DNA of 64,000 nt, taken from IMG/VR virus record IMGVR_UViG_3300044712_000998, positions 62,001 to 126,000 of that record; one strand, written 5' to 3'. Below the pieces are notes generated by a model. It saw only the letters and a list, made by a program, of their open reading frames with translations, searched no databases and was not told the DNA's origin. How positions within the stretch are numbered: position 1 is the stretch's first letter; each line of letters opens with the position of its first letter. A program made the translations under genes and the position numbers. The DNA is from a virus. This document shows, in pieces, positions 34,643-57,771 of this stretch.

Positions 34643-35225
34643 CGAGGAACTCCAACATCCCTTTGAAAATCTCCTTAGCGAGAGGGACACCTTCCAGCTC
34701 ACGGAGGGCGGCAGTTCTGTTGGCCTCGACGATGTCGTCGAGGTCGTACTTGGCTGCCATGACCGCTCGGAAGAGCGGTGTGAACTGGATCGTGTCGTCT
34801 GCTAGGACGAGGTGAGGACCATCAAGTCTACTGCGCTCCGCGAAGATGTGCAACTGGCTCAGGTAGTGCCTCGCGGAACGAACCCCCGATCTGTTGTGGT
34901 CCGTCAGGGTTCGTTCGAACTTTTCTGAAGCGATGGCTGACGGCCAGAACGTGCCGAGCATCGCCATGCCTTCGAGCTGCGTCTTCACGAAGGCTTCAGC
35001 TGTCATGCCGCGACGCTTACAGAGCTCAGCGGCACGGTAAAACACGGGGTAATGCGTCTTCGAGACCCGCGCGATACCAGGAACGTAGATCGGCCGCATG
35101 GCCTCGTATTGCCGTAAAATACGGAACGCGAGCTCAGCGGTCTCGCGGTCTGCGACGTGATGGGAACCGTCGGCGTCCACGACATCCAACCGATAGAACG
35201 GGTTTACCTGTTCTCGATCGACCAC
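34632..35225 (-). CDS. Hypothetical protein, 197 aa
   Basis: GTG at 35225, overlapping the upstream TAA by 22 bases; overlaps the helicase start at the other end. Helical C-terminus and a Cys/Arg-containing middle. Its location just upstream of the helicase would suit a loader, but it lacks an ATPase motif. Confidence 0.6.
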   Translation of the reverse strand: MVDREQVNPFYRLDVVDADGSHHVADRETAELAFRILRQYEAMRPIYVPGIARVSKTHYPVFYRAAELCKRRGMTAEAFVKTQLEGMAMLGTFWPSAIASEKFERTLTDHNRSGVRSARHYLSQLHIFAERSRLDGPHLVLADDTIQFTPLFRAVMAAKYDLDDIVEANRTAALRELEGVPLAKEIFKGMLEFLDAK

Positions 35226-36694
35226 TTGTTCTTCCGGTACACGGTGACGCGCTGCTTGGACCTGGACTCCAGGTTGGAGCTGAACGTGTCATAGAAATCC
35301 AAGAGGAGCCCGTGGCTCTTCTCGGTCTCCCTACCGAGTCGGGAGAGTCGACCGGGCACCTGGCCTGAGTCGATGGGACTCGCGGTCCCATCAGCTCGGA
35401 CCAAGCAGGCCAGATCGCGGAAGTCGACGCCCTGTCGCCAGACCTTGGTGCAGATCACCCGCTTGAGCCGGTTCGCCTCGAACTCGGTCCGGTAGTGATC
35501 CCGCATGGCCTGCGTACAGATCGCCTGCGTGGGCAGCATGGCGCCACGCTTCAGCATCTGCTTGACGCGATCCGGGGTGGGTTCCCCGCTGACCACGGCG
35601 TAGTCCGGGAGCAACTGCCCCATGGCGTAGGCGTGCTCGGTCTTGTCGACGACCACGAGGATCTGGGCGTCAGGCCCGAGTTCCTTTTCGACCGCGCGGA
35701 CACTTTTCGCGATGAGTCCGTTTCGAGCCATGTTGAGCCAGAGCCCGAGCCTGTCGGCCTTGGCCTTGTTCTTGTCGGCCACCGCGGCGACATCGGGTCC
35801 GACCTCGGACCGGAACATGCGGACCTTGATGGGTACGATGTTGCCGGCGTCGACGCCTTCCTGGTACGAGATGTCCACCAGCACAGGTCCAAACACGGCC
35901 TCACCGAGCGCATCGGCCCGATCACTGCGACCCTTCGGCGTCGCCGTGAACCCGAATAACCGGGCCCGATAAAATCGGTTCAGCAGCTTGATGAAGTGGT
36001 CCGTCATCAGGGCGTGGCACTCATCGGCCAGGATGATGCTGGCGTCCTTGGGGCAGTGGTGCAGGGAGTGGCTCACGGCGACCGTGAGCCGCTTCGGGTT
36101 CATTTTCCCGGCACCGACAAGCCCCACGGTTTGCGGACCGAGCTGCATGACGAGATCTTTGTAGATGTCCTTGGCGACGTCCTGATAGGGCACCGTCAGG
36201 ATGATCTCCGACTTCGGGTACACCTTGGCGAGCTGCTTCGCGATGTAGGTCTTCCCGAATGCCGTCGGGCACACGATGCGACCCCGCTTGTGCGCCAACA
36301 GCCTGGCGAACACCGCGGCCTGCTTGGGCCTCCAGACGACATCCGCGATCTTGGTCAGATCGGGCGCCGGGAGTCCGTCCGAGACGAGGTCCCGGACCTC
36401 GACTTCGAGCCCCTGCCTCCGCAGCATGGCTTCGAGTCGAGGTCCGTACCCCGCGTAGGTGCAGAAGAACTTGCTGTCATCCTTACCGTCGGCGTACCAG
36501 AACAGGGGCACCGGCACCGGCTTCCTGGTGCGAACCGGGTAGGTGCGCTCCTCGCCGGTCATGGCGTCCCGTTCTGTTTTCCATTCCACGACATTTTCCA
36601 TGCGGATCACCGTACAGGTGTCGTGGAACAGCTCGCCGTACACGGCTGGTGACAGCCTCAGAGCACGGCCCAGGTACGCCAACTCAACGGTCAT
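35204..36694 (-). CDS. Superfamily II DNA/RNA helicase (UvsW-like)
   Basis: 496 aa. The ATG at 36694 overlaps the E1-like TGA (ATGA). Motifs: Q-like VVWRPKQAAVFARLL, Walker A CPTAFGKT, Walker B LADECHALM, motif III GFTATPKGRSDRA, and a C-terminal helicase half with LKRVICTKVWRQGVDF and PGRLSRLGRE. The arrangement is like phage UvsW and other annealing/branch-migrating helicases. It follows the ubiquitin-like cassette in the same transcript. Confidence 0.85.
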   Translation of the reverse strand: MTVELAYLGRALRLSPAVYGELFHDTCTVIRMENVVEWKTERDAMTGEERTYPVRTRKPVPVPLFWYADGKDDSKFFCTYAGYGPRLEAMLRRQGLEVEVRDLVSDGLPAPDLTKIADVVWRPKQAAVFARLLAHKRGRIVCPTAFGKTYIAKQLAKVYPKSEIILTVPYQDVAKDIYKDLVMQLGPQTVGLVGAGKMNPKRLTVAVSHSLHHCPKDASIILADECHALMTDHFIKLLNRFYRARLFGFTATPKGRSDRADALGEAVFGPVLVDISYQEGVDAGNIVPIKVRMFRSEVGPDVAAVADKNKAKADRLGLWLNMARNGLIAKSVRAVEKELGPDAQILVVVDKTEHAYAMGQLLPDYAVVSGEPTPDRVKQMLKRGAMLPTQAICTQAMRDHYRTEFEANRLKRVICTKVWRQGVDFRDLACLVRADGTASPIDSGQVPGRLSRLGRETEKSHGLLLDFYDTFSSNLESRSKQRVTVYRKNKWSIENR

Positions 36695-37371
36695 TTCGAG
36701 GACATCTCCATGGCGACGAGGTTCATCAGGATGTCCTTCATCAGCGGGATCTTCCGCATCCAGAGGGAGTACTGCTGGACCGCGAGACCTGCCGCCAGGT
36801 TGGCGTGATGCAGGGTCATCTTGGTCGTGCAGCCACCGTCGAAGCGGTCCTTGGCGTCGAAGATCGTGGAACTGTAGTAGTCCCACCCGATCTCATCGCA
36901 AGCGATGAGAACGCGGATCGTGTCAGCAGCGACCCGGGTGTCGACGATCAGCTTGACCTTGTGCTTGTAGGCCTCGAAGAGCAGCTTCCTGGTGTGGATG
37001 GAATCCACACAGAGGAACATGACATCGGCCTCGACGCCATCGTAGGGAACCTGGGTCGGGACCGCGTTGATCGTGGCCTTGCGCCCCGTCGCCAGCAGGG
37101 CGTCGTTCAACGCCACAGCCTTGGACTTCCCGAGATCGCTCTCCGCCCAGCCCTGCGGGTACAGGTTGGCCTCCTCGACGTCGTCGTGATCGTAGAACGT
37201 GACATCCCGCTGTCCGCACAGGACGAGCTGGCGGACGAGCTGGCCACCCACGGCGCCGACGCCAGCGACGACGACGCGGTGGGTGAACAGACCCTCGGTG
37301 GGCAGGATGCCGGCCTGCCGGCTGAACCGGACAGGCACGGCGGGGGCAGCGGCGGTTGCGGCTTCGGTCAT
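36691..37371 (-). CDS. E1/ThiF-like Ubl-activating enzyme (cassette A)
   Basis: 226 aa. An adenylating Rossmann fold: GVGAVG at 47-52, the DHDDVEEANL segment (71-80) with the conserved Asn, and GKSKA (91-95), where the Lys contacts ATP. C191 in DGGCTTK is the candidate active-site cysteine that would form a thioester with the Ubl. Members of this superfamily activate ubiquitin, ThiS, MoaD and bacterial Ubls. Start and stop overlap the JAB gene (TAATG) and the helicase gene, so all are translated together. Confidence 0.8.
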   Translation of the reverse strand: MTEAATAAAPAVPVRFSRQAGILPTEGLFTHRVVVAGVGAVGGQLVRQLVLCGQRDVTFYDHDDVEEANLYPQGWAESDLGKSKAVALNDALLATGRKATINAVPTQVPYDGVEADVMFLCVDSIHTRKLLFEAYKHKVKLIVDTRVAADTIRVLIACDEIGWDYYSSTIFDAKDRFDGGCTTKMTLHHANLAAGLAVQQYSLWMRKIPLMKDILMNLVAMEMSSK

Positions 37372-39422
37372 TATTCCTCGCGTTTCAGTGCTGTGTTGGC
37401 TTCATCGACCGTGGGCTGCACCTGGGCGAGCTCACGCGTCTTCTCCTGATCGGGATCCTGGAGCACGATGTTCAGATCGGCCGCCGCCTTGTGGCAGTCA
37501 TAGCCGTGACGCCGGAACGCGTTGAGGACCTTCACGCAGACATCACCCCAGCCGCCGGTCTTGGCGCCCTTGAGCAGGTTCGCGAACCCGTTCTCGACCT
37601 TGGTGACGTCGAACATGTTTTCGTTGATCCGGTTCCCTTCGGTGACCGCCATGGCGAACTCGAAGGTCTCCAGCAAGCACTGGTCCTCGTCGGACAGCTG
37701 GTCCCGTTCCGCCTGCTTGTTCTCAACGGCGACTTCCTGGCTGTACTGCCAGAGATCGTATTCCAACCTGGCCGCGCTGAGATGCCCGGACCTGACGTCC
37801 GAGAGCATCTCGATCTCGGCGGTCGTCAGCCAGATCACCGTGGTGCCATCCATGAGGACCCACGGGTACAGGCTATCCACCGGATTCCCGGCGGTGTCCG
37901 TGTACGTGACGAGATCCGACATCAGCGGGTTCCTGAACTCGGCGACCCGCTTCAGGACGGCCTCGGCGACCTTGAGGTCGTCTTCGACATCGAACCGGAC
38001 CTTGTCGCCGACGTACTCACCGAACCGCAGCAGCCCCTTGGGGTGCCCGGTGTAGCTGACCTTGCTGTCCTTGTCGGTGTAGCTCACGATGACGTCACCA
38101 TTGACGTCCTCACCGGTGATCTTGATGTCGTTTTCCTCGAGGTTCTGCCGGATCGCGTGCGTGAGATCCTTGGCCTTGACGTTGTTGGCCAGGATGTTCT
38201 GCGCGTAGGAGTCCAGGTAGTACAGGAGGTCGTGGTACCTGAACTCGAACAGCGTCAGCTTGGCCCTGCCGGCCTGCATGATCGCTGACACCTTGGGGAA
38301 CCACCCCTTGGGCGCCTGGAGAACGCGGAAACCAACGGGGTCGTCCCGATTGGCTTCATGGTCGAACCGTTTCTCCTCGGGGGTCTTCGGCAACGGCGCC
38401 CCAGCGGGTGGCGGAGGCGCGTAGCCGTATTCCCTCATGAACCAGTCATCCCCCTCGTAGTACCCGTCGTACCCTCGTCCGTCGTATCCGCCGCGGTACC
38501 CCGTGCCTTGGGCTTGCGTCCCCGGCGTTGCCGCCGGCGCGTAACTTTTCGGCCTCCTGACGGCATCGACCCCCTGCGCCCACAGCGGGTTGCGCGCGCC
38601 ATAGTCGTAGGCCATGAAGTAGGATTCCTGGACGTTCGCCCGGATCGTGGTCGCCCAGGCCTCGTGATCCGCCGCCGGGAACGGGAGCTCCCAGCGCACC
38701 AGAGCATCCAGCTTGTGCACCGTGCACAGACCGTTCTGGTGCCGCTCCTCCAGCCTGGCGTAGAACTCGCCACCCTTGGCCAGGATGAACATGACGGCCC
38801 AGTCACAGGCCCCCCAGGTCCGCGCGAACGTGGCCTCGTCGACCCCGCTCGGGTACGGACTCGTACCCGGGTGCGTGTGGATCCAGATGCGCTGGCACTG
38901 CACCGGCTGGAACTTGTACTCACCATCCGGATCGCAGAGCTCGAACATCAGATCGGCGTACGCGGTGTCATCGAACCGGACATAAGCCGCATTGACGACC
39001 TGCTTCGGGATCGCGATATCGACGATCAAGAGAGGGTCCTCGAGATCCGAGATCGCCATGCCGCCGATCTCGGTGCTCACCGAGGCGCACATGAACTTCA
39101 GCTTGGCCCACGCGTAGGGGCTGAACTGCAGCTTGGTCGTGGCGAGCGGCTCCAGCAACGGAGCCTTCACCACGATCGGCCGGAGCTTTTCCTCCTGCTT
39201 GTACTTGTCGGGGGCCACCGTCGGCGGGATCGTGGTCCCCGTCCTGAGATCGATCTTGGAACCCGCCTTATGCGTCGGCGTCGGGGTCACCGTCGCCCCC
39301 GTCATCGGGGTCGTGGACGTCGTCGTTGACGACTGCGGCGAGGTCAACACCGACGGTGTCGTTTCCGGGGGCACGATCTGCGTCCCGGACGTCACGACCG
39401 GTTCGCTTGTGGATTTCGGCAT
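37371..39422 (-). CDS. JAB/JAMM isopeptidase with long C-terminal extension (cassette A)
   Basis: 683 aa. The first 75 residues are Thr/Pro/Ser-rich and probably disordered. The JAMM metalloprotease is complete: E118 (STEIGGMAI), H182-T-H184, S192 and D195 (WIHTHPGTSPYPSGVDEA), which bind zinc and water to cleave Ubl or isopeptide bonds. Residues ~330-683 form an unassigned, mostly alpha/beta region that begins after a Tyr/Gly-rich linker. The start at 39422 has GAGGAAG upstream but lies 155 bases inside the E2 gene. Confidence 0.8.
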   Translation of the reverse strand: MPKSTSEPVVTSGTQIVPPETTPSVLTSPQSSTTTSTTPMTGATVTPTPTHKAGSKIDLRTGTTIPPTVAPDKYKQEEKLRPIVVKAPLLEPLATTKLQFSPYAWAKLKFMCASVSTEIGGMAISDLEDPLLIVDIAIPKQVVNAAYVRFDDTAYADLMFELCDPDGEYKFQPVQCQRIWIHTHPGTSPYPSGVDEATFARTWGACDWAVMFILAKGGEFYARLEERHQNGLCTVHKLDALVRWELPFPAADHEAWATTIRANVQESYFMAYDYGARNPLWAQGVDAVRRPKSYAPAATPGTQAQGTGYRGGYDGRGYDGYYEGDDWFMREYGYAPPPPAGAPLPKTPEEKRFDHEANRDDPVGFRVLQAPKGWFPKVSAIMQAGRAKLTLFEFRYHDLLYYLDSYAQNILANNVKAKDLTHAIRQNLEENDIKITGEDVNGDVIVSYTDKDSKVSYTGHPKGLLRFGEYVGDKVRFDVEDDLKVAEAVLKRVAEFRNPLMSDLVTYTDTAGNPVDSLYPWVLMDGTTVIWLTTAEIEMLSDVRSGHLSAARLEYDLWQYSQEVAVENKQAERDQLSDEDQCLLETFEFAMAVTEGNRINENMFDVTKVENGFANLLKGAKTGGWGDVCVKVLNAFRRHGYDCHKAAADLNIVLQDPDQEKTRELAQVQPTVDEANTALKREE

Positions 39423-41310
39423 TGTAGAAAGCTTCCTCTTCGGTGGATGCGGTCAGTACCAGCAGGGGCTGCCTGCTGACACCATCGATGAGCTGGTTAA
39501 CGGCAGCGCAGTATTCCTTCAGGAACAGCTGCATGATCGGCGGCATGTTGAGCTGTCCGAGCTCGACGAGGCGGAGCCGCTTCACGATCTCGACCGCTTC
39601 GGCAAGCGGGGTCTCGTTCGCCAGGAACGACATCGGAGTCACGTACTCCTTGGTGACGTCATCCAGCAACATGGCCCAGAAGTTCTGGATCCAGCCCTCG
39701 AGGTACGCGACGTCCCTGAGGAAAGCCTGAGAGAACTGGAGACCACCGGGATCGCAGACCGGACAGCACTTGGCGATCCTGAAGAAGTCATCGCGGACCT
39801 CCTCCTTGGGAGCCCAGGCTCCGCACGCACACATCACCGCTTCCCGGATCTTCGGGGTCGGCCTGTTATTCCTGAACTGAGGAGCCAGTGTAGAGAGCAG
39901 GTTGCCGTTCGCCTGGAACCGGAACATCTTTTCACCGGCGTCACCGACTGCATCCGTCGGAGTCAGACAGCTCGTGCAGAAGGTCCAGCCGTTTCGCACC
40001 GGAACCTGAGCATTGACGGCCTGATCGCGTGGGAACTTGGTACGGCAGCTGTGACAGAGGTACTCACCAGCTGCAGCAGCCTCGGCCTCCTGCTTGAAGC
40101 CGTCCACGCACTTCACGCAGCACAGGTTCCCGTTGAAGATGCGCCGCGTCGGACCGGTCGGACCGGCGGATCCGCAGAGCGGGCACCGGTACATGTCGCG
40201 CGGATGGTAGTAGTGACCCTCGTACTCCACCGCACAGGTCTTGTGCAGCGTCATCCGGCCATCGTTGATAACGACGCGGTCCTCGCCAGGCTTGATTCGC
40301 CCGTTGCACGCCGAACACCGGACCTTGGTCGGACTCCAGTGCCTGAGATCGTTGAAATCGCCCTCGTGGTTATACGAGCTCAGGAGCTGGAAGAACACGA
40401 AGAACGTGTCGGATATCTGCCCGTTCCTCAACGAGACGTTGCCGGGACCGGCGGCGGTTCCACCGCACACCTGACCCCCCTGCTGGACGTGCGGATGCCA
40501 CATGGTTCCGCCGCGGCGCGTGTTGGGTTCACGACCAGCCGCAACAGACAACCGCACCGAATAGGTCATATCGGCTTCTGCGAGATCGCGGAGACCAGCG
40601 GCTTTCGAATCAAGTGGGAACTCGAGCTGCCACGGCGGGAACTCGACGGGATCCCCGTCCTGATCGTTGATCGTGATGCTTCGCGTAACAGCCACGAGGC
40701 GTGGCATGCCATCCCAACGGTTCCCCTTACTGGTCCCCTTCGCGAACTCCTGATCACCAGGCAGTACGACTCGGAGATCCAGGAAATCTGGACTGGTATA
40801 GACCGCGCAGAGCTCCCTGAAGAAATGGTCTCCGTTCAGCTTGACCCCGGCCCGTGTTGCCGGGTTCTGGAACTCGGCCAAATTGTTGTCGACGTTGCCG
40901 GAGAACAGCGCCTCGATGTCGGCATCGACCTGCCCGGCCATTTCATGGATTCTCGGGATCCCGATACCAGTGTGTTTGATTCGCTCATACAGATTGGTGT
41001 CTGTCCGGATTTCCCGCAGCGCCTCTGCGGCTCCGACACGACGATACCGCATGATCTCGGTCATCTTCTCGAATATCTGCACGACGTTCTCTCGAACCCG
41101 GTTTGAAACCGACTCCATGGTACGAGCCTTATCGATCATCTCATCTCGCAGCTTGGTCACCATATCGACCGTGGTTATCGCATACATCTTTTCCAGCATG
41201 TCGGCTGCGGTACGAAACTTGGCGATCCGCTCAGGCGTGAGCTCCTTCTTCGGTTCTTTACCGGCCACCGGAGGATCGGCCGGAAGAGCGTCGAGATTGA
41301 CTGTTGGCAT
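39268..41310 (-). CDS. E2-like domain fused to zinc fingers (cassette A)
   Basis: 680 aa, ATG at 41310 after GAAAGGACAT. After a helical N-terminus, residues ~165-320 resemble a ubiquitin-conjugating fold: strands, then WHPHVQQGGQVCGG with H272 and the candidate catalytic C282 placed as in the HPN...C motif of E2s, then a helix (FFVFFQLLSSYN). C-terminal to it are several Cys/His sites: CSAC...HKTC (332-359), CPLC...CCVKC (376-401), CHSC...CTSC (419-448) and CAC...CCPVC. Treble-clef/RING-type fingers in this position would make it a joined E2-E3. The E2 call is by motif reading only. Confidence 0.65.
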   Translation of the reverse strand: MPTVNLDALPADPPVAGKEPKKELTPERIAKFRTAADMLEKMYAITTVDMVTKLRDEMIDKARTMESVSNRVRENVVQIFEKMTEIMRYRRVGAAEALREIRTDTNLYERIKHTGIGIPRIHEMAGQVDADIEALFSGNVDNNLAEFQNPATRAGVKLNGDHFFRELCAVYTSPDFLDLRVVLPGDQEFAKGTSKGNRWDGMPRLVAVTRSITINDQDGDPVEFPPWQLEFPLDSKAAGLRDLAEADMTYSVRLSVAAGREPNTRRGGTMWHPHVQQGGQVCGGTAAGPGNVSLRNGQISDTFFVFFQLLSSYNHEGDFNDLRHWSPTKVRCSACNGRIKPGEDRVVINDGRMTLHKTCAVEYEGHYYHPRDMYRCPLCGSAGPTGPTRRIFNGNLCCVKCVDGFKQEAEAAAAGEYLCHSCRTKFPRDQAVNAQVPVRNGWTFCTSCLTPTDAVGDAGEKMFRFQANGNLLSTLAPQFRNNRPTPKIREAVMCACGAWAPKEEVRDDFFRIAKCCPVCDPGGLQFSQAFLRDVAYLEGWIQNFWAMLLDDVTKEYVTPMSFLANETPLAEAVEIVKRLRLVELGQLNMPPIMQLFLKEYCAAVNQLIDGVSRQPLLVLTASTEEEAFYNAEIHKRTGRDVRDADRAPGNDTVGVDLAAVVNDDVHDPDDGGDGDPDADA

Positions 41311-41331
41311 ATGTCCTTTCAGGAAATGGGT

Positions 41332-41361
41332 GGCCCCACCGGAGTTGCCTCCGATGGGGCC
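41332..41361 (-). terminator. Hairpin between Ubl and E2-zinc genes
   Basis: GGCCCCA plus CGGAG pairs with CTCCG plus TGGGGCC around a TTGC loop, in the gap after the Ubl stop and before the ribosome binding site of the E2 gene. With no U-tract it could set the relative dose of Ubl and enzymes rather than fully stop transcription. Confidence 0.5.
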
Positions 41362-41382
41362 GAGCTGTTCAGACCGGTGGGA

Positions 41383-41688
41383 TCAGAACCAGAACCGACG
41401 GCCGTGGGCGCCCTCGATGTTCTTGGGGGTGACGGAGACCTTGTCGCCGTCCTTCAGGGGAGCGGTGGGCGCCGCGGGCTGGCCGTTCACGCGGATCTCC
41501 GCGTTGCGGGTGTCGCCGACGGCGTCCTGGACCTTGGCGCCGGCCGGGAGGTCCTTGTAGCCGACCATGCCGCTGCCGTCATTCTTCATGACGAGCACGC
41601 GGACGACGCCGTCGTTGGCCTTGACGGTGACCTGGTTGCCGGGCGGGACGGTGATGTCGGCGAGGGGGCCGGTGGGTTCGGTGGGCAT
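41383..41688 (-). CDS. Ubiquitin-like beta-grasp protein (cassette A)
   Basis: 101 aa, ATG at 41688 following GGAGGAGTAGAAC. The segment from residue ~18 runs as MoaD/ThiS-like proteins: strand, helix (AGAKVQDAVGD), then EIRVNGQPAAPTAPLKDGDK and VSVTPK. The C-terminus reads EGAHGRRFWF: one glycine followed by five residues rather than a terminal GG. Cutting after AHG by a JAB peptidase could expose a glycine for activation. It lies between SbcC and the E2-zinc gene. Confidence 0.72.
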   Translation of the reverse strand: MPTEPTGPLADITVPPGNQVTVKANDGVVRVLVMKNDGSGMVGYKDLPAGAKVQDAVGDTRNAEIRVNGQPAAPTAPLKDGDKVSVTPKNIEGAHGRRFWF

Positions 41689-41691
41689 GTT

Positions 41692-44091
41692 CTACTCCTC
41701 CGCATGTGCGGGGGTTGATGTGATGACGATGGAACGATCGAAGAAACCCTTGAGCGATTCCTCGTGAGTAACGAGGATGATCTGTTTGCCGGTCGAGCCG
41801 GCGAGATCCTTGAGCTTCAGCAGGAGCTGCTGGAGATGAACCACGTTGTCCTTGTCCAGGTAGTTGCTGGGCTCATCGAGGATGAGCAGGCCTACCTGGC
41901 GTGCGAAGGTGTCCGCCATGGTGAACCGGAACGACGTCGCACCTACGATCTTCTGACCACCCGACAATCTGCCGGCACTCAGCACCATGCCGTCATTGAA
42001 CTCGGCCACGAAGGCGAGGTCATCATCGAGCGACATAACAAACGGAGCTTCCCAGAGGCGGAGATAGTACGCCATCCGCCGATTCAGGACGGCTGCGTAC
42101 TCCCGCATCAGCATCGATGGCAACCCGTTGACGTGCAGGGCTTCCCTGGTGCGCTTCACGAGTCCGACCCAAGCAGCATCCTTGGCTTCGGCTTCCATCT
42201 GACGCTTCAGACGTGCAACGGCTTCCGCGTACTGCTGTTCGCGGACCTCGAGCATGGAGACGTCGTCTGACGCCGCCCTGAACTCGGCACTACGAGTCGC
42301 CAGAGCCGCGCAATCCTGCTTGGCCTTGGCAACCTCTTCTTCCGACGGGAGCTCAGCTAACCGGCCCAGCTGCTCCAGCGCAGCTCGGGCACCATCGTAC
42401 TCCTGCTTGGCCTTCCCTACGCTCTGGACATGGTGTCCAAGGCTGTTGCGAAGCTCGGCACAACGGAGCTTCGCGGTCTGGTGATCGTCGACGCACTTCT
42501 GCAGAGCCGAAGTGTCCACATCGTCCAGGGGACCATCCTTCACGGAACCGAGCTGGCCGCGGAACATGTCCGCCCGGCTCGTCAGGTTCTTCCATGCGGA
42601 CAGCTGTGCCTGCAACCTCGTCAGGTGAGCCCTGGCCTCCGATTCCTCGGAAGTCAGTCTCTCAACGACCTTCTTCAACGCCGACTTAGCGGCATCCTCG
42701 ATGGCCATGACAGCCGTCGTGGTCTGCCGCCTGGCTTCTATGGCGGCCTGAACGGCGACCTCGTGGGCTCCACGCCGCGCCGTCCGTGACGCCACCAGTT
42801 TGACAGTGAGCTGCTCGATCTCGACCTTCGCTGCGGCCACATCGAAGTTGGCAACGGGCTGATGACATGTCGGACAGGTCCCCGACTCGAACGTCTTCAG
42901 ATCGGCTTCCTTCCGCTTGATGGTCTCAAGCAGGGCGTAGTCCTCCTTGGTATCGACCGTCGGGTCGATCTTCCGGAGCTCCCTGTAGGCCTCCTCGGCC
43001 TTGGCCTGGGCTTCTAAAGCCTCCTTCTCGCCGGGCATCTCCGGTCTGGCCATGGTTCCATTGAGCTGTGCGGTTCTGGTCCGCAGCGCCGTAGCGATGG
43101 TGCCATGCTTGGACTCCGCCTTGGCGACGTCCTCCTCGGAAGGAGCCTCGCCAATCTTGACGAGTCCAGCCTGGGCCTCCTCGAGCTGCTTCTTGAGCTC
43201 TTTGACACGATCAGCGTTGTGTCGGTGAGCTTCCGCCGTGATGATCTGCTTCCTCGCTGTTTCAGCAAGCGGAGCCAGAGCTTCGACGGTCTCCTCGACC
43301 AACTTGAGATCTGCGGCGACGCGTTCCCTGGCCTCCTCGGCCTCCTTGAGATCGGTCCCGGTCGACTTTACGCGAGCCGTGGCCTGTTTGATGGCGCCGT
43401 TGTTGGCCTGGGCAGCGAGGACTCCGTTAAGGAAGGCCTCGGACACCCTGAGCTTTTCGACGTCACCGCGGAGCTTCTCGAGTTCGTCCACCTTGGACTG
43501 CAACGCCACCTTGGATGCCTTGCGGGCACCCTCAGCGGAATCGAGCTGCTCCTTCAAACCGATGGTCACGTTGTATCGACCGAGCTCGGCCCCCAACGCC
43601 TTCTCGGCATCGGCGGCACGCTGGAGCCCGACGATCTGCTGGATCTCCTTGAGCCGCTTCGTCGTCGTCGAGAACAGGATGCTCTCGATGGCGCCTTGCG
43701 GCACGAAGACGTTCTCCAGCAACGACTGGATCGTGGTGCCCAGGAGCCCTTCGATGAACGCATCGATTTCGGCGAGCTTGTCGATGACGGTCCCGTCGGG
43801 CTTCTGGAGCATCTGGGCGTTCTTCTTGCCGAAGTCCCGCCTGATCGTGTACGCGGAGTCGCCGTGTTCGAATTGCACGACGACGCGACCCTGGGTCTCG
43901 CCGAACGTGACGTTGTCCGTCTTGCCGCCATCACCGATACTGGTACCGGTGATGGCGAATCGGATCGCGTCCAGAACGGATGACTTCCCGGACCCGTTGG
44001 TCCCGACGATCCCATTGATCCCGGGTCCGAAGACCAGGTCGAGATCCCTATGGATGGTGAAGTTCTTGATCTGGACGCGCTTGATGAGCAC
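41692..44091 (-). CDS. SbcC/Rad50-like ATPase (gp46-like)
   Basis: 799 aa from a GTG at 44091 (GGGAGACGCC upstream). Walker A GTNGSGKS (30-37), long coiled-coil arms, a zinc hook CPTCHQP near residue 390, then the ABC signature RLSGGQKIVGATSF and Walker B GLLILDEPSNYLD. With SbcD it would form a DNA end-processing nuclease used in recombination or host DNA breakdown. Phage homologues are about 550-800 aa. It sits between the two ubiquitin-like cassettes. The stop is TAG. Confidence 0.88.
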   Translation of the reverse strand: MLIKRVQIKNFTIHRDLDLVFGPGINGIVGTNGSGKSSVLDAIRFAITGTSIGDGGKTDNVTFGETQGRVVVQFEHGDSAYTIRRDFGKKNAQMLQKPDGTVIDKLAEIDAFIEGLLGTTIQSLLENVFVPQGAIESILFSTTTKRLKEIQQIVGLQRAADAEKALGAELGRYNVTIGLKEQLDSAEGARKASKVALQSKVDELEKLRGDVEKLRVSEAFLNGVLAAQANNGAIKQATARVKSTGTDLKEAEEARERVAADLKLVEETVEALAPLAETARKQIITAEAHRHNADRVKELKKQLEEAQAGLVKIGEAPSEEDVAKAESKHGTIATALRTRTAQLNGTMARPEMPGEKEALEAQAKAEEAYRELRKIDPTVDTKEDYALLETIKRKEADLKTFESGTCPTCHQPVANFDVAAAKVEIEQLTVKLVASRTARRGAHEVAVQAAIEARRQTTTAVMAIEDAAKSALKKVVERLTSEESEARAHLTRLQAQLSAWKNLTSRADMFRGQLGSVKDGPLDDVDTSALQKCVDDHQTAKLRCAELRNSLGHHVQSVGKAKQEYDGARAALEQLGRLAELPSEEEVAKAKQDCAALATRSAEFRAASDDVSMLEVREQQYAEAVARLKRQMEAEAKDAAWVGLVKRTREALHVNGLPSMLMREYAAVLNRRMAYYLRLWEAPFVMSLDDDLAFVAEFNDGMVLSAGRLSGGQKIVGATSFRFTMADTFARQVGLLILDEPSNYLDKDNVVHLQQLLLKLKDLAGSTGKQIILVTHEESLKGFFDRSIVITSTPAHAEE

Positions 44092-44105
44092 GGCGTCTCC
44101 CTGGG

Positions 44106-44312
44106 CTAGTTGCCCTTGACCTTACGCACCAGCAGGATGGTCTGGCCGTCCCGCACCACGGTGTCCGTGGTGGTGTCCTGGCCGTCGAGACGGATCTCGA
44201 AGCCGTTGGCATCGAGACCGGCCTGCTGGAGGACGGCGCCGACGGTGGTGCCCTCGGGCACGTTGAAGTCGTCGATCTTGCCGGGCATACGGCCTGCGCG
44301 AACGTTGGGCAT
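44106..44312 (-). CDS. Ubiquitin-like protein (cassette B)
   Basis: 68 aa, ATG at 44312 with AAAGCGAG upstream. Strand-helix-strand order typical of beta-grasp Ubls: DFNVPEGTTVGAVLQQAGL, then EIRLDGQDT, then VVRDGQTILLVRKVKGN. It ends KGN, so a penultimate glycine would become C-terminal after loss of one residue. It is transcribed after the cassette B E1 gene. The stop is TAG. Confidence 0.72.
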   Translation of the reverse strand: MPNVRAGRMPGKIDDFNVPEGTTVGAVLQQAGLDANGFEIRLDGQDTTTDTVVRDGQTILLVRKVKGN

Positions 44313-44372
44313 GTGGAAACTCGCTTTCTGAGATGAGAAGAGGTTGACTGAAACGATGGATCAGATGAACAA

Positions 44373-45080
44373 CTAGAACGCGCCAGCCTGCCTGGTCATC
44401 ACCATGGGCGGGTCGGCATAGAAGATCGCTTCAGCTTGGGGTCGCTCGTGTTTCTCGGCGTCCTTGGCGTTCGCGAACCAACGGATCATGGACCACACCG
44501 CGTGGGCATGGATCAGAGCAGCAGTGGGTCCCACCGAGGTACGGGCCCCGCACAGGGACTCCGCGGCCTCGTCATCGTCACAGAGCGTGGATTCCCAGAA
44601 CCTGATGTCACCAGGGATGCACGGTCTCACGATGTAGACCCGTCCCTCCGAGGCCCCCATGCGGGTCTCGATCATGATTTCGGTCATGGGATGGAACCGG
44701 ATGGCGCCCTCCCAGATCTCCTTGCGGGACTTCATGGTGTCCGTGAGCAGGAAGACCACGTTGCCGAGCTCGCTGCGCCCCGTGACGGCCTCGGGGTGCT
44801 TGGTGACCTCCAGACCGGTATCCGCGAGGATCCGGTCTGCGAGGGCATCCACTTTGAGCTTGCCGACATCGTTGATACCGAAGAGCTGATTGGCGCAGTT
44901 ATGCGCCTCGATCTTGTCGAAGTCGTGCAGATGGAGGTTGGTGACCCCCAGCTTGGCGATCTCCATGGCGATGCGGGAACCCGTGGCTCCGCAACCGATG
45001 ATGTCGACCCTGCGATCCCCGAAGGTATCCGGGTTGAAGACCGACATGTGTCGCAGCGGATCCGTCTTGTTCGCCGCCAT
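44373..45080 (-). CDS. E1/ThiF-like Ubl-activating enzyme (cassette B)
   Basis: 235 aa using the ATG at 45080, which follows GGTGG and forms TGATG with the JAB stop; the ATG at 45092 is less well placed. Motifs: GCGATG (39-44), DFDKIEAHNC (63-72), GKLKV (83-87) and LCGARTSVGPTA, where C187 is a likely catalytic cysteine. It differs clearly from the cassette A E1, so the two are not a recent duplication. The stop is TAG. Confidence 0.8.
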   Translation of the reverse strand: MAANKTDPLRHMSVFNPDTFGDRRVDIIGCGATGSRIAMEIAKLGVTNLHLHDFDKIEAHNCANQLFGINDVGKLKVDALADRILADTGLEVTKHPEAVTGRSELGNVVFLLTDTMKSRKEIWEGAIRFHPMTEIMIETRMGASEGRVYIVRPCIPGDIRFWESTLCDDDEAAESLCGARTSVGPTAALIHAHAVWSMIRWFANAKDAEKHERPQAEAIFYADPPMVMTRQAGAF

Positions 45081-45826
45081 CAGGTCCACCATTCCTTACG
45101 GCGGCCGGAGCCCCCGCGCGGGTGCCTGGTCGGCACGATGACCTCCTTGCTGCGGTCCCGGAAGTCGCCGTGCTTGTACGGCGGCTCACCGGCCAGCGGA
45201 ACACCCATGGGCACGTAGGCCCCGCGAACGGGCTCCGTGAACCCCTTGACGCGCTGATCGACGATGCCGCGCCAGAACTTGAAGCGCTCGTTCTCGACGT
45301 CCGGGATGACCTCCCAGGGGACGTCCTTGATCGGCTTCCACGACTTCCCGCACTGGAAGTAGACGGTGAACTCGGCGTCCCCCTTCTTGTTCAGGATGCC
45401 GCGGATCCAGGCGTCCTGGTCGCCAGCATACATCTTGCAGAACTGCTCCATCTGGGCGTCGTCCTGCCCGCTGGGGCTGACCCCCATGTCGACGTGGGAG
45501 TGGCACCACGTGCTGAGATGGTTGGCACGGAACCCGGGATCCTTGGCCTGGATGCCGGCCTTGCTGTCCTCGTCGATGAGCCGCATGGCGGCGTCGGCGA
45601 GGCCCTGCTCGTTGAGCTCGGTGGTGGCACCGTGGCAGTTCTGATCGGGGAGCACGACTTCGCTGAGCACGAAGTCACCGTCTTCGGTCTCGTGGGTCAC
45701 GACGAGCCAGCCGACCTCCATGCCGACGATCTGGACGAGGTGCCACATGTCCTCGAGACACTTCTGTTTGATCTTGATCGTGGGGACACCATGGAAGGTG
45801 GGTTTGAACACTCTGGGATTGAACAT
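45080..45826 (-). CDS. JAB/JAMM peptidase (cassette B)
   Basis: 248 aa, ATG at 45826 after AAGGAGCCC. Complete JAMM motif: E37 (GMEVGWLV), H109-S-H111, S119 and D122 (CHSHVDMGVSPSGQDDAQ). Such zinc peptidases free Ubls from targets or trim Ubl precursors. The C-terminal 110 residues are basic and unassigned. Overlaps the E1 gene by one base. Confidence 0.85.
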   Translation of the reverse strand: MFNPRVFKPTFHGVPTIKIKQKCLEDMWHLVQIVGMEVGWLVVTHETEDGDFVLSEVVLPDQNCHGATTELNEQGLADAAMRLIDEDSKAGIQAKDPGFRANHLSTWCHSHVDMGVSPSGQDDAQMEQFCKMYAGDQDAWIRGILNKKGDAEFTVYFQCGKSWKPIKDVPWEVIPDVENERFKFWRGIVDQRVKGFTEPVRGAYVPMGVPLAGEPPYKHGDFRDRSKEVIVPTRHPRGGSGRRKEWWT

Positions 45827-45833
45827 GGGCTCC

Positions 45834-47366
45834 TTAGCCTGGGGTTGCTACGGTTGCAGGGGTTGCGGGCACCGCTTCAGCGGCGACCTCCTTGATGATC
45901 TTGCCTTCCTGGAGGCGCTGGAGGACATCCGTGTGGGAGTACTCGATGCCGAGATCCTTGAGCACCTCGCCAGGCTTCTTCTTGGCGAGCTTGGCGTATT
46001 CCTCGAGCTGCTCCTTGGTGAGCGCGACGGGCCACTTCACGATGCCCTGGCCTGCGTTGTCATCGAGATTGACGGCCTCGATGAACGCGAAGCAGACCTG
46101 CGTCAGCGCGGACCACTGGTACCCGGCGACGAGCTGCGGGATGACCTCCCGCATGTTGCCGAGACACGGTCTCCCATCCGGGAACAGGTGGGGACCATTC
46201 ATCTGATCCTGGAACGAGTTCACCCGTCGGGTCTGGTTGAAGAACCGGACCTCGGAGGTCCTGTGATCCACGATCAGCTTGAAGACGCCGATGTCGTAGA
46301 CGGTGCCGTTGGGATGCTGGCAGTAGCAGTGCTTCGTGGTGATCGTGAGGTTGTCACCACGCCAGTTCACGTTGGCCACCTTGGGAACCTTGAGCAGACC
46401 GCGGAACTCCTTGCGGAGGCCGCCATCGACGTCCTTGATGTAGCTGTCGAAGTTGTCGAGCTCATGCCTGGCCTGGCGACCGCGCTGGATCGCCAGAACG
46501 AGGTTCTTCTCGTACTCCTGGGTTTCCCGCATGGCCTCGTCGAACTCGTGCTTCAGCTCGATCTTGCGCTTATCGACGCGCTTCCGGCACGCCGTGACGT
46601 ACCGCTTCTCGATGTTGTCGTAGTCCGGGGTGCCGCCGAAGTTGGTCTTGGCGAGCTCGATGTAGCTCTCGAAGAACTTCTCCAGGATGAAGAGATCGTT
46701 GGCGTTGCCGACCGTCAGGAGATCCGGGTAGATGTAGAGATGCTTGGGTCCCGCGGCACCGACCTCTTCACCTTCGGACGACGTGATCGGTTCTCCACCG
46801 ACCCAGGGAGCGAACAGAGCACGGTTCTGATTGCTGACGTCGCGGCCCCACATGGCTGGCGACGGGAACCATTCGCCGCCGTCGGTCGAGCTGTGGAAGA
46901 TCACCGCCACGGTGTTGTCATCCACCGGCGGTGGCTGGAGCCGGTTCCCACCAGGGCAGAACACCTTGACGTGCTTCCCGATCGCGGGAGTCAGGACCCG
47001 CTGGATGATCGCCTTGATGACGGCGCGATCGGGTGTCCCGATCCAGGACGCGAACGTGACCACCTTGATCAACTTGGGATCCACGGCCACCGTGGCCGGG
47101 GTCCCATCGGGGTTCGCCAGCGCGACGAACATGATGCCGTCGTAACCCGTGGGGGTCACCACGCTGGCGTCGTAGCCGTACTCGGCCAGTTTCTGGACTC
47201 CGGCCTTGGCGATGGCCCAGCACGGAATCGGTTCCTCGACGGGGTCCTCTTCGAAGCCGAGGGTCTCCTCGGCTATGATCCTGATCGTGAGCTCTTCGAG
47301 CCGCTCCTTGGAGACGGCATCTCGCAGGACGTAGTAAACCGTCCTGCCGGTGGTTTCGGCGGGCAT
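45834..47366 (-). CDS. E2-like Ubl-conjugating protein (cassette B)
   Basis: 510 aa, ATG at 47366 after GAAGAGGGAGCAC. Residues ~345-450 read like an E2 core: VFKLIVDHRTSEVRFFN, then NGPHLFPDGRPCLGN with H403 and candidate catalytic C411, a Trp (W428) and the helix ALTQVCFAFIEAVNLDDN, matching the order H...G.iC...W....vl..i in UBC folds. The 330 residues before it include an alpha/beta domain and a coiled coil (265-312) of unknown role. First gene of the cassette. Confidence 0.68.
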   Translation of the reverse strand: MPAETTGRTVYYVLRDAVSKERLEELTIRIIAEETLGFEEDPVEEPIPCWAIAKAGVQKLAEYGYDASVVTPTGYDGIMFVALANPDGTPATVAVDPKLIKVVTFASWIGTPDRAVIKAIIQRVLTPAIGKHVKVFCPGGNRLQPPPVDDNTVAVIFHSSTDGGEWFPSPAMWGRDVSNQNRALFAPWVGGEPITSSEGEEVGAAGPKHLYIYPDLLTVGNANDLFILEKFFESYIELAKTNFGGTPDYDNIEKRYVTACRKRVDKRKIELKHEFDEAMRETQEYEKNLVLAIQRGRQARHELDNFDSYIKDVDGGLRKEFRGLLKVPKVANVNWRGDNLTITTKHCYCQHPNGTVYDIGVFKLIVDHRTSEVRFFNQTRRVNSFQDQMNGPHLFPDGRPCLGNMREVIPQLVAGYQWSALTQVCFAFIEAVNLDDNAGQGIVKWPVALTKEQLEEYAKLAKKKPGEVLKDLGIEYSHTDVLQRLQEGKIIKEVAAEAVPATPATVATPG

Positions 47367-47392: not shown

Positions 47393-48517
47393 CTAAGCCG
47401 CGAAGAACTTCTCGCGACGCTCCTTGATCATGTCGAACACGCTCTGCTTGGACTGCAGGAGATCCAAGGTGAACTGGAACGCATCGGGTTCACGTTCCGG
47501 ATCGATGATCTCTTTGAGGAGTTCCTCAGGTGTGATCAGCTGATCCTGCGGCCGGGCTTCCACGGGGAGATCCGCGAGGAGCTCCTGGTCCAGCGTGAGC
47601 TCCTCCGGCGTCTGGACGGCTTCCATGACGATAAACGCTGAGGCGTTGTACGTCCGTCGTAACTCGCCAAGCCGGGCCTTGCAGGCACCGACATGGAAGC
47701 AGTACGCGACCGGTGGCAGTTCTGGCACCGTCGCTGTTGCTTCCTTGAGCCAGGTTTCCACGGCATCGACGTCCTCCGCTTTGCTCAGGTTGAAGCGTTC
47801 CACGAGCCGGTACGGCAACGGCAGCCTGGACCACGTCAGATCACGGTTCACCAGGACGCAGCTCTTCGGGCCGCGCTGTCCGATGTCACGGAGATGCGTG
47901 GCACCGGTGTACAGGGCTCGACGCCCGGCCCCGAGATCGTGATCCCATTCCACATGGATGTCCCCCATGACCACCAACGGGATCGACTTCGGAACCCAGT
48001 CCAGATCACAGTTCCACTTCCCTTCCCACTTCAGGGCCTGCTTGACGGCCTGATGCAGGAACAAGACCTGGGTCTTACCGATCTCGGGGTCCTGGGTCAG
48101 CTTGGCCAGGGACTCCACGATGTCATCTTTGAGCGCGTAATCGAGACCACGGCAGTTGACCCCGCCGATGGTGACCTGGTGACCATCACCAATATACTGG
48201 ACCCATTCATGTACCGCGGAAGACCACGAAGGACTCCGTTTATCATGGTTCCCATCGATGGCGTACACATGGACCCGTTCATCGTAGAGCCGGTCCATCT
48301 GCTTCCGGAAGAACCGGATCATCTGGGGACCGGGCTCCACGGTGTCGAAGATGTCGCCAACGAGGACCAACGGGAGCATGTTCTCAATGGCGACATCGAT
48401 GAGCGCCGCGAAGGCGAGCTCGGCGTCCCCGGTGATGTTGACCTGGGGTCGCCAGATCAACGGGGTCAGATGAATGTCGCCAGCAGCTATGAACGCCGGG
48501 TCAGAGGTCGGCGGCAT
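47393..48517 (-). CDS. SbcD/Mre11-like nuclease (gp47-like)
   Basis: 374 aa. Metallophosphatase motifs in order: GDIH (13-16), LVGDIFD, GNHD (IDGNHDKRS), LHQAV and VVMGDIHVEWDH. These bind two metal ions to cut DNA ends together with SbcC. The ATG at 48517 lies inside the end of the upstream gene. Only the four genes of Ubl cassette B separate it from SbcC. The stop is TAG. Confidence 0.88.
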   Translation of the reverse strand: MPPTSDPAFIAAGDIHLTPLIWRPQVNITGDAELAFAALIDVAIENMLPLVLVGDIFDTVEPGPQMIRFFRKQMDRLYDERVHVYAIDGNHDKRSPSWSSAVHEWVQYIGDGHQVTIGGVNCRGLDYALKDDIVESLAKLTQDPEIGKTQVLFLHQAVKQALKWEGKWNCDLDWVPKSIPLVVMGDIHVEWDHDLGAGRRALYTGATHLRDIGQRGPKSCVLVNRDLTWSRLPLPYRLVERFNLSKAEDVDAVETWLKEATATVPELPPVAYCFHVGACKARLGELRRTYNASAFIVMEAVQTPEELTLDQELLADLPVEARPQDQLITPEELLKEIIDPEREPDAFQFTLDLLQSKQSVFDMIKERREKFFAA

Positions 48518-57698: not shown

Positions 57699-57771
57699 TG
57701 CGTCCGGCGGGGATCGAACCCGCGACTGGCCGGTTTTAGAAACCGCTCCTCTGCCACTGAGGTACGGACGC
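57699..57771 (-). tRNA. Amber suppressor tRNA, anticodon CUA
   Basis: Folds as a tRNA on the minus strand: acceptor GCGTCCG/CGGACGC with discriminator A, D arm CCTC-AGTGGCA-GAGG, anticodon arm GCGGT-TTCTAAA-ACCGG with anticodon CTA at 57737-57739 and a G-G mismatch at 27-43, 6-base variable loop, T arm GCGGG-TTCGATC-CCCGC. CCA is not encoded. CUA reads the stop codon UAG. The amino acid it carries cannot be told from sequence alone. It lies 7 bases from the TAG of the gene upstream. Confidence 0.85.

Follow-up and report, generated by a model that had tools for sequence, protein, structure and literature searches.

In a stretch of viral DNA of 64,000 nucleotides (called the window hereafter; bases 62001-126000 of the 191,518-base IMG/VR virus contig IMGVR_UViG_3300044712_000998), we have identified two gene cassettes, A and B, each encoding an E1-like activating enzyme, an E2-like conjugating enzyme, a JAB/JAMM peptidase and a ubiquitin-like modifier (Ubl). 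The contig encodes DNA polymerase A, primase and a DnaB-type helicase as well as a baseplate wedge protein and a protein with Rpb1 domain 5, and is that of a tailed phage. The eight cassette proteins are homologous to the components of Ubl conjugation, their active sites are conserved, and so is the gene block in which they lie. Both cassettes are almost certainly bona fide gene sets for Ubl conjugation, and we favor, with a rough probability of 0.68, the interpretation that the phage runs two separate pathways of ubiquitin-like conjugation and deconjugation, the likeliest clients of which would be its own SbcCD/replisome or DNA-bound host proteins.

Two cassettes in a conserved gene block

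An earlier note on this DNA, in which motifs were read from the letters, had claimed that genes for E1, E2, JAB and Ubl occur twice. Indeed, all eight open reading frames (ORFs) are intact on the minus strand at the coordinates given in that note, their family profiles recover the expected folds in PDB, and contig-wide profile searches found E1, JAB, the E2 core and Ubl exactly twice each. The proposed gene orders, namely E2, JAB, E1 and Ubl in cassette B and Ubl, E2-zinc, JAB and E1 in cassette A, were also confirmed:

45834..47366, minus strand: cassette B E2 (E2-B), core at residues ~330-446 with GPHLFPDGRPCLGN and catalytic Cys401
45080..45826, minus strand: cassette B JAB/JAMM peptidase (JAB-B), with E37, H109xH111, S119 and D122
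44373..45092, minus strand: cassette B E1 (E1-B), ThiF-type with a single adenylation domain (Pfam ThiF 1.2e-17) and conserved Cys181
44106..44312, minus strand: cassette B Ubl (Ubl-B), 68 amino acids, ending in LLVRKVKGN (Pfam ThiS 1.8e-4, slightly below the cut-off)
41383..41688, minus strand: cassette A Ubl (Ubl-A), 101 amino acids, ending in TPKNIEGAHGRRFWF, recognized by the Ubl profile
39268..41310, minus strand: cassette A E2 (E2-A), with HPHVQQGGQVCGG (Cys282) and, after it, several treble-clef-like zinc modules
37371..39422, minus strand: cassette A JAB/JAMM peptidase (JAB-A), with a C-terminal extension of ~450 residues
36691..37371, minus strand: cassette A E1 (E1-A), ThiF-type (Pfam ThiF 4.6e-19)

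The cassettes are embedded in an operon that runs on the minus strand as SbcD, E2-B, JAB-B, E1-B, Ubl-B, SbcC, Ubl-A, E2-A, JAB-A and E1-A and then continues into replication genes. In the scan with E1-B, the ten-gene block (SbcD-E2-JAB-E1-Ubl-SbcC-Ubl-E2-JAB-E1-helicase) recurred with its gene order unchanged in four other distinct viral contigs, L082 (179 kb), L083, L086 and L084/L077 (180 kb), with two E1s per record, and the arrangement is therefore considered to be more than chance; L078/L085 resemble a near-copy of L084/L077. The catalytic residues of both cassettes are unchanged in all five contigs with no frame broken, and the identity between the window and L082 is 65% in E1-B, 45% in E1-A, 43% in E2-B and 24% in E2-A. 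Also, nonsynonymous divergence (dN) is well under synonymous divergence (dS) for most of the measurable cassette genes (e.g., 0.09 vs 1.06 for E1-B and 0.15 vs 1.15 for E1-A between L083 and L086), many of the dS values, including that of E2-A, being saturated. The longest ORF of JAB-A begins 155 bases within the E2-A gene (window 39268-39422), and comparable overlaps are present in L082 and L077.

Identity of the E1, JAB and E2 proteins

The E1 proteins in the window are 226 and 239 amino acids long with one ThiF domain each; both score above the Pfam ThiF cut-off, and their nucleotide-binding motifs are GCGATG (B) and GVGAVG (A). Among seven phage E1s, the adenylation residues G33, G35, D57, D59, K80 and D118 as well as C181 (B numbering) are invariant, and the E1 family profile retrieved MccB/ThiF/UBA5 from PDB, with Cap2 and BubCD also matched. 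Invariant in the JABs (n = 6) are E37, H109, H111, S119 and D122 (B numbering); the matches to Pfam Prok-JAB stay under the cut-off, and the JAB family profile retrieved RPN11, CSN5, BRCC36 and AMSH from PDB with the best E value of 2e-7.

No match of the E2s was found in Pfam, PHROG or NCBIfam. E2-B is composed of an N-terminal region of ~240 residues, a long helix (residues 249-325) and the E2 core, and P392, H393, C401 and G403 are the sole invariant columns in 13 B-type E2s. In nine A-type E2s, H272, P273, C282 and G284 are invariant together with seven Cys residues, the latter bearing out the zinc that the earlier note had assigned to the E2 of cassette A. The catalytic motifs pointed out in that note (GxGxxG in E1, JAMM, and H...C in E2) are conserved across the aligned relatives. 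A profile of 129 positions was then built from 14 E2 cores and compared with PDB, and the best 60 sequences were almost all ubiquitin E2s (UBE2L3, UBE2N, UBE2A and UBE2D); in the alignments printed, HPN...C is in register, the catalytic Cys included. Trimming to the core was needed, as the whole-length E2 profiles gave only coiled-coil or zinc matches in PDB. When the profiles of E2-A and E2-B were compared with each other, furthermore, the two domains were found to be homologous (probability 98.3, E 1.7e-14). The zinc part of E2-A reads CxxC/LHxxC/CxxC from residue 332 and matches Prok-RING_1 at an E value of 0.07, its C2-HC-C2 pattern being short of a full RING; its profile matched the TRIM5 RING at 5e-4, outscored by a designed zinc finger.

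C-termini of the Ubl proteins

The Ubl profile retrieved SAMP2 (5e-7), MoaD, RnfH and ThiS from PDB, and a homologous Ubl in the locus L098 exceeds the Pfam ThiS cut-off. In both Ubls of the window, a Gly residue precedes the tail, KG-N in B and EG-AHGRRFWF in A. The B-type Ubls end in KGN, alone or with 1-17 additional residues, in the window, L019-L023, L026, L027, L030, L068, L082 and L084, and the variants are AKGNA, AVGNS and, in the bacterial locus L090, VVGN. The A-type Ubls end in G(A/N/E) with a tail present or absent, or consist of Ubl units repeated in tandem with GA at the junctions; the Ubl of cassette A is a tandem of 2-3 Ubl units in L077, L083 and L086. The mature Ubl may end in either Gly or Asn. 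In the phage PhiXhv-12, the Ubl is already GG-ended and no JAB was detectable across the 227-kb record, which fits the role of JAB as a Ubl-processing enzyme; L017 is an exception, where a GG-ended Ubl is accompanied by JAB.

We also noticed a tRNA with the CTA anticodon (amber-suppressor type) at window 57699-57771 on the minus strand (Rfam tRNA, 58 bits). TAG is the stop codon in 4 of the 22 checked genes, all of which (SbcD, E1-B, Ubl-B and SbcC) are inside the SbcD-SbcC block. Read-through of the Ubl-B TAG by this suppressor-like tRNA to a tail like that in L082 was considered and rejected, as the read-through sequence does not resemble that tail.

Replication and repair context

Within the replication/recombination operon, cassette B is flanked by SbcD and SbcC, and cassette A by SbcC and a helicase:

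47393..48517, minus strand: SbcD/Mre11-type nuclease, the first gene of the block (NCBIfam Mre11 2e-16, sbcd 2e-8)
41692..44091, minus strand: SbcC/Rad50-type ATPase, separating the two cassettes (Pfam AAA_23 1e-22; position kept in 5/5 contigs)
35204..36886, minus strand: DNA helicase of superfamily 2 (SF2), whose long ORF overlaps the end of E1-A

Both of the NCBIfam scores of SbcD are under the curated cut-offs, and its position is shared with L082, L083, L084 and L086. Downstream of E1-A, the SF2 helicase, orf197, DnaB, primase and polymerase A follow, and this order is kept in L077. A primase, helicase, UDG or topoisomerase adjoins the cassette also in crAss001, the Flavobacterium phage FpV4, the bajarodcaudo virus and PhiXhv-12. 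Among 99 flanking ORFs from ~29 loci, the named PHROGs are mostly Holliday junction resolvases, exonucleases, DnaB helicases, primases and polymerases, with one SbcC, and no head or tail family is included in the 25 listed PHROG families flanking the cassettes. Reverse transcriptases account for 3 of these 99 ORFs. Elsewhere in the contig (G000 180445-182331; L016:445-2331), the protein with RNA polymerase Rpb1 domain 5 (1.4e-13) hints at a multi-subunit RNA polymerase that is possibly encoded by the phage itself.

Relatives and origin of the cassettes

Scans of IMG/VR gave 60 loci with a related E1; JAB is near the E1 in nearly all of them, mostly just upstream, and many have an E2 with HPH...C or HSH...C. 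The claim that two cassettes are unusual for a phage was upheld by the other whole cassette-bearing phage records, of which 48/49 have one E1 and 1/49, belonging to the same lineage, has two. No match was obtained by tblastn with either E2 against 50,697 phage records or in the single-protein viral scans with E2-B and E1-B. As other arrangements, a 138-kb phage contig (L002:3288-11921) combines a single JAB and a single E1 with two Ubls and with three E2-zinc proteins in tandem, and a 395-kb phage contig (L088) has one E1 directly followed by two B-type E2 genes.

In the E1 trees, A and B belong to separate, strongly supported clades. The A clade is composed only of phages in this sample (100/99), the bacterial genomes having been scanned with the B-type E1 only; E1-B groups with cassettes on the chromosomes of Obscuribacterales/Melainabacteria and Doudnabacteria, and an E1 of Kaiserbacteria is placed inside the phage group. 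The separate clades point to an old pairing of two lineages and no recent duplication and, together with the lack of copy-like resemblance, suggest that A and B are probably parallel, non-interchangeable pathways. The nearest cellular relatives of cassette B are in the bacterial loci L090-L095 and L097 (Melainabacteria/Obscuribacterales), where the E1s are 49-51% identical. A ClpA/B-like AAA+ unfoldase is located directly after E1 in 7/7 of these bacterial loci (L094 vs the ClpB model, 1.8e-246), and its position beside JAB-E1 suggests tag-directed unfolding or proteolysis in bacteria; no Clp partner was found in the fetched phage loci, the phage contig beyond the window being partly covered. 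In a Bdellovibrionales cassette (L099:2547-3803), one E2 reads PDGRSFSG at the catalytic site with no Cys and adjoins an active-looking E2; this Cys-less protein is possibly an inactive partner E2.

Proposed pathways and alternative explanations

Judging from their sequences, the two cassettes would very probably be catalytically working pathways. JAB would trim the short tail of the Ubl and later take the tag off; E1 would adenylate the C-terminus of the Ubl with ATP and hand the Ubl via the conserved Cys to the Cys of E2; and the dedicated E2 of each cassette would attach the Ubl to protein targets, the zinc modules fused to E2-A probably standing in for a separate E3. Because the cassettes are inside a replication/recombination operon, SbcCD/replisome or DNA-bound host proteins are the likeliest clients, and we consider the chance to be about even that the clients act in DNA replication/repair. 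SbcC itself is a candidate client with a rather low probability, and this guess is supported by the archaeal precedent, in which an E1/E2/RING/JAMM set ubiquitylates Rad50 in vitro at lysines in the coiled coil and Rad50 of Sulfolobus is modified with Urm1 in vivo (PMC5654768). Only tentatively can we extend the interpretation to two independent Ubl pathways, one bacterial-chromosomal and the other phage-derived, that reversibly control the phage's own SbcCD/replisome in a eukaryote-like manner, as do ubiquitin/SUMO at breaks and forks.

Several points weigh against the interpretation of two conjugation pathways acting on such clients. The matches of the E2-core profile to ubiquitin E2s are individually modest (E 0.0085-0.11). 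The AlphaFold2 model of E2-B, with a predicted local distance difference test score of ~80-90 in the core, had UBE2S as a non-significant best match in PDB (E 0.23, probability 0.72), and that of E2-A was of low confidence and matched only LIM/FYVE/RING zinc folds. To our knowledge, there is no separate E3. Neither Ubl in the window ends in GG, and the Ubl of cassette B in L083 (10711-10917) and L086 (10726-10932) ends in KIKSN, where Gly is changed to Ser with Asn kept. The count of flanking families was made without a random control, and the gene neighborhood is no proof of SbcCD or the replisome as a target. Catalysis, conjugation, the separateness of the pathways and their targets are all inferred.

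As an alternative, the cassettes might be weapons against the host or rivals, tagging host proteins (defence sensors, polymerase, competing phages) in a way similar to Bil and the cyclic oligonucleotide-based antiphage signaling system (CBASS). Known relatives in bacteria that share the enzyme set indeed act in antiphage defence (BilABCD and Cap2; PMC11354881, PMC12355090, PMC10097602), and the E1s match the PADLOC E1-E2 models; nonetheless, we regard this as unlikely, given that the cassettes are in the core replication operon, outside accessory/moron regions, are kept in divergent phages, and have no defence-specific partner (CD-NTase or metallo-β-lactamase nuclease) adjacent within the window. 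Very improbable would be sulfur-carrier or cofactor enzymes that perform ThiS/ThiF-like thiolation instead of protein conjugation; the E1s are closest to the ThiF/MccB type and the Ubls to ThiS/SAMP2, but a dedicated E2 with HP(H/N)...C.G is present in both cassettes and in relatives, a terminal GG is absent, and no thiamine or molybdopterin gene was recognized beside the cassettes.

The two cassettes could also be unequal, a single one working and the other being a decaying or regulatory remnant. The loss of Gly from the Ubl of cassette B in L083/L086 (KSN) and the fast divergence of the cassette A proteins, the fastest of all with E2-A being 18-24% identical to the window across the lineage, would be consistent with such decay, which is however improbable in the light of the invariant catalytic residues, the unbroken frames and the constraint on most of the measurable genes described above. 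As for a recent tandem duplication of one cassette, the same four activities at one locus and the homologous E2 domains might be taken to support it, but the E1s are in different clades, B with bacterial chromosomal and A with phage cassettes, and the gene order and protein architecture differ between A and B, leaving it a negligible probability. We thus retain the interpretation of two separate Ubl pathways. The location of the cassettes around DNA-break-repair genes, kept in at least four related contigs, suggests that phages may tag proteins for DNA copying/repair.

Comparison with known systems

To date, complete bacterial E1-E2-Ubl-JAB pathways have been reported mostly in the context of antiphage defence, and here the phage itself owns two; relatives with a single cassette are present in dozens of phage contigs, those of crAss001-type gut phages among them. 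If active, the cassettes would make ubiquitin-like tagging a part of basic phage biology, offer small systems with two pathways in which the specificity between modifiers can be studied, and bear on prokaryotic or viral roots of the ubiquitin control of DNA repair.

The operon of Candidatus Caldiarchaeum subterraneum (Ub, E1, E2, a small RING protein and Rpn11/JAMM) has the same enzyme set plus RING-like zinc; there, JAMM removes the tail of the pro-Ubl, E2 is of a canonical type, and Rad50 has been proven to be a substrate in vitro (PMC5654768). It is, however, an archaeal single set with a GG end and a separate E3, whereas the phage has two viral sets with no GG and with zinc fused to E2. 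BilABCD, to which the earlier note had likened the cassettes, is also made of four genes for Ubl, E2, JAB and E1 with the Ubl pre-processed by JAB. This functional likeness stands, but membership in Bil was rejected: the E2 of Bil has a CEHH motif and its E1 is a two-domain pseudodimer (PMC11354881), while the phage E2s have HP(H/N)...C.G and the phage E1s are single-domain proteins of 220-260 residues. CBASS Cap2/Cap3 and Bub share the ThiF-type E1 domain (PADLOC E1-E2; Cap2 and BubCD in PDB); Cap2 is an E1-E2 fusion (PMC12355090), and the phage cassettes were not assigned to it, as E1 and E2 are separate genes, CD-NTase is absent, and the PADLOC match spans the E1 part only. PRTRC-like operons (type 6d, Iyer et al. 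2006) also unite Ubl, JAB, E1 and E2, but PRTRC_ThiF scored 31-33 bits vs the cut-off of 144.75 with the other PRTRC models unmatched, and membership was again rejected; the phage E2s keep the classical His, unlike the type 6d E2 (PMC1779556). The Obscuribacterales/Melainabacteria cassettes resemble cassette B, the Ubl in L090 ending in GN, but differ in having a tandem E2 pair in most loci covering that region.

Among phages, crAss001 gp79-gp76 (L006 4160-8570) similarly encode Ubl, E2-like (HSH...C), JAB and E1 proteins beside a primase, but constitute only one cassette of a distant clade, in which the Ubl has a long C-terminal tail; FpV4 (L005 4595-8606) has a homologous Ubl/E2/JAB/E1 set, and the sets of the two phages adjoin a primase or UDG. 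The cassette genes of these two phages are labeled as hypothetical, metalloprotease or ThiF/thiamine biosynthesis. A literature search in open-licence PMC papers, preprints excluded, gave no account of complete Ubl cassettes in phages, which is weak evidence of absence, and specialists may already be aware of single phage cassettes. In conclusion, the phage cassettes are a variant of prokaryotic Ubl conjugation that is phage-borne, doubled and fixed in a replication operon.

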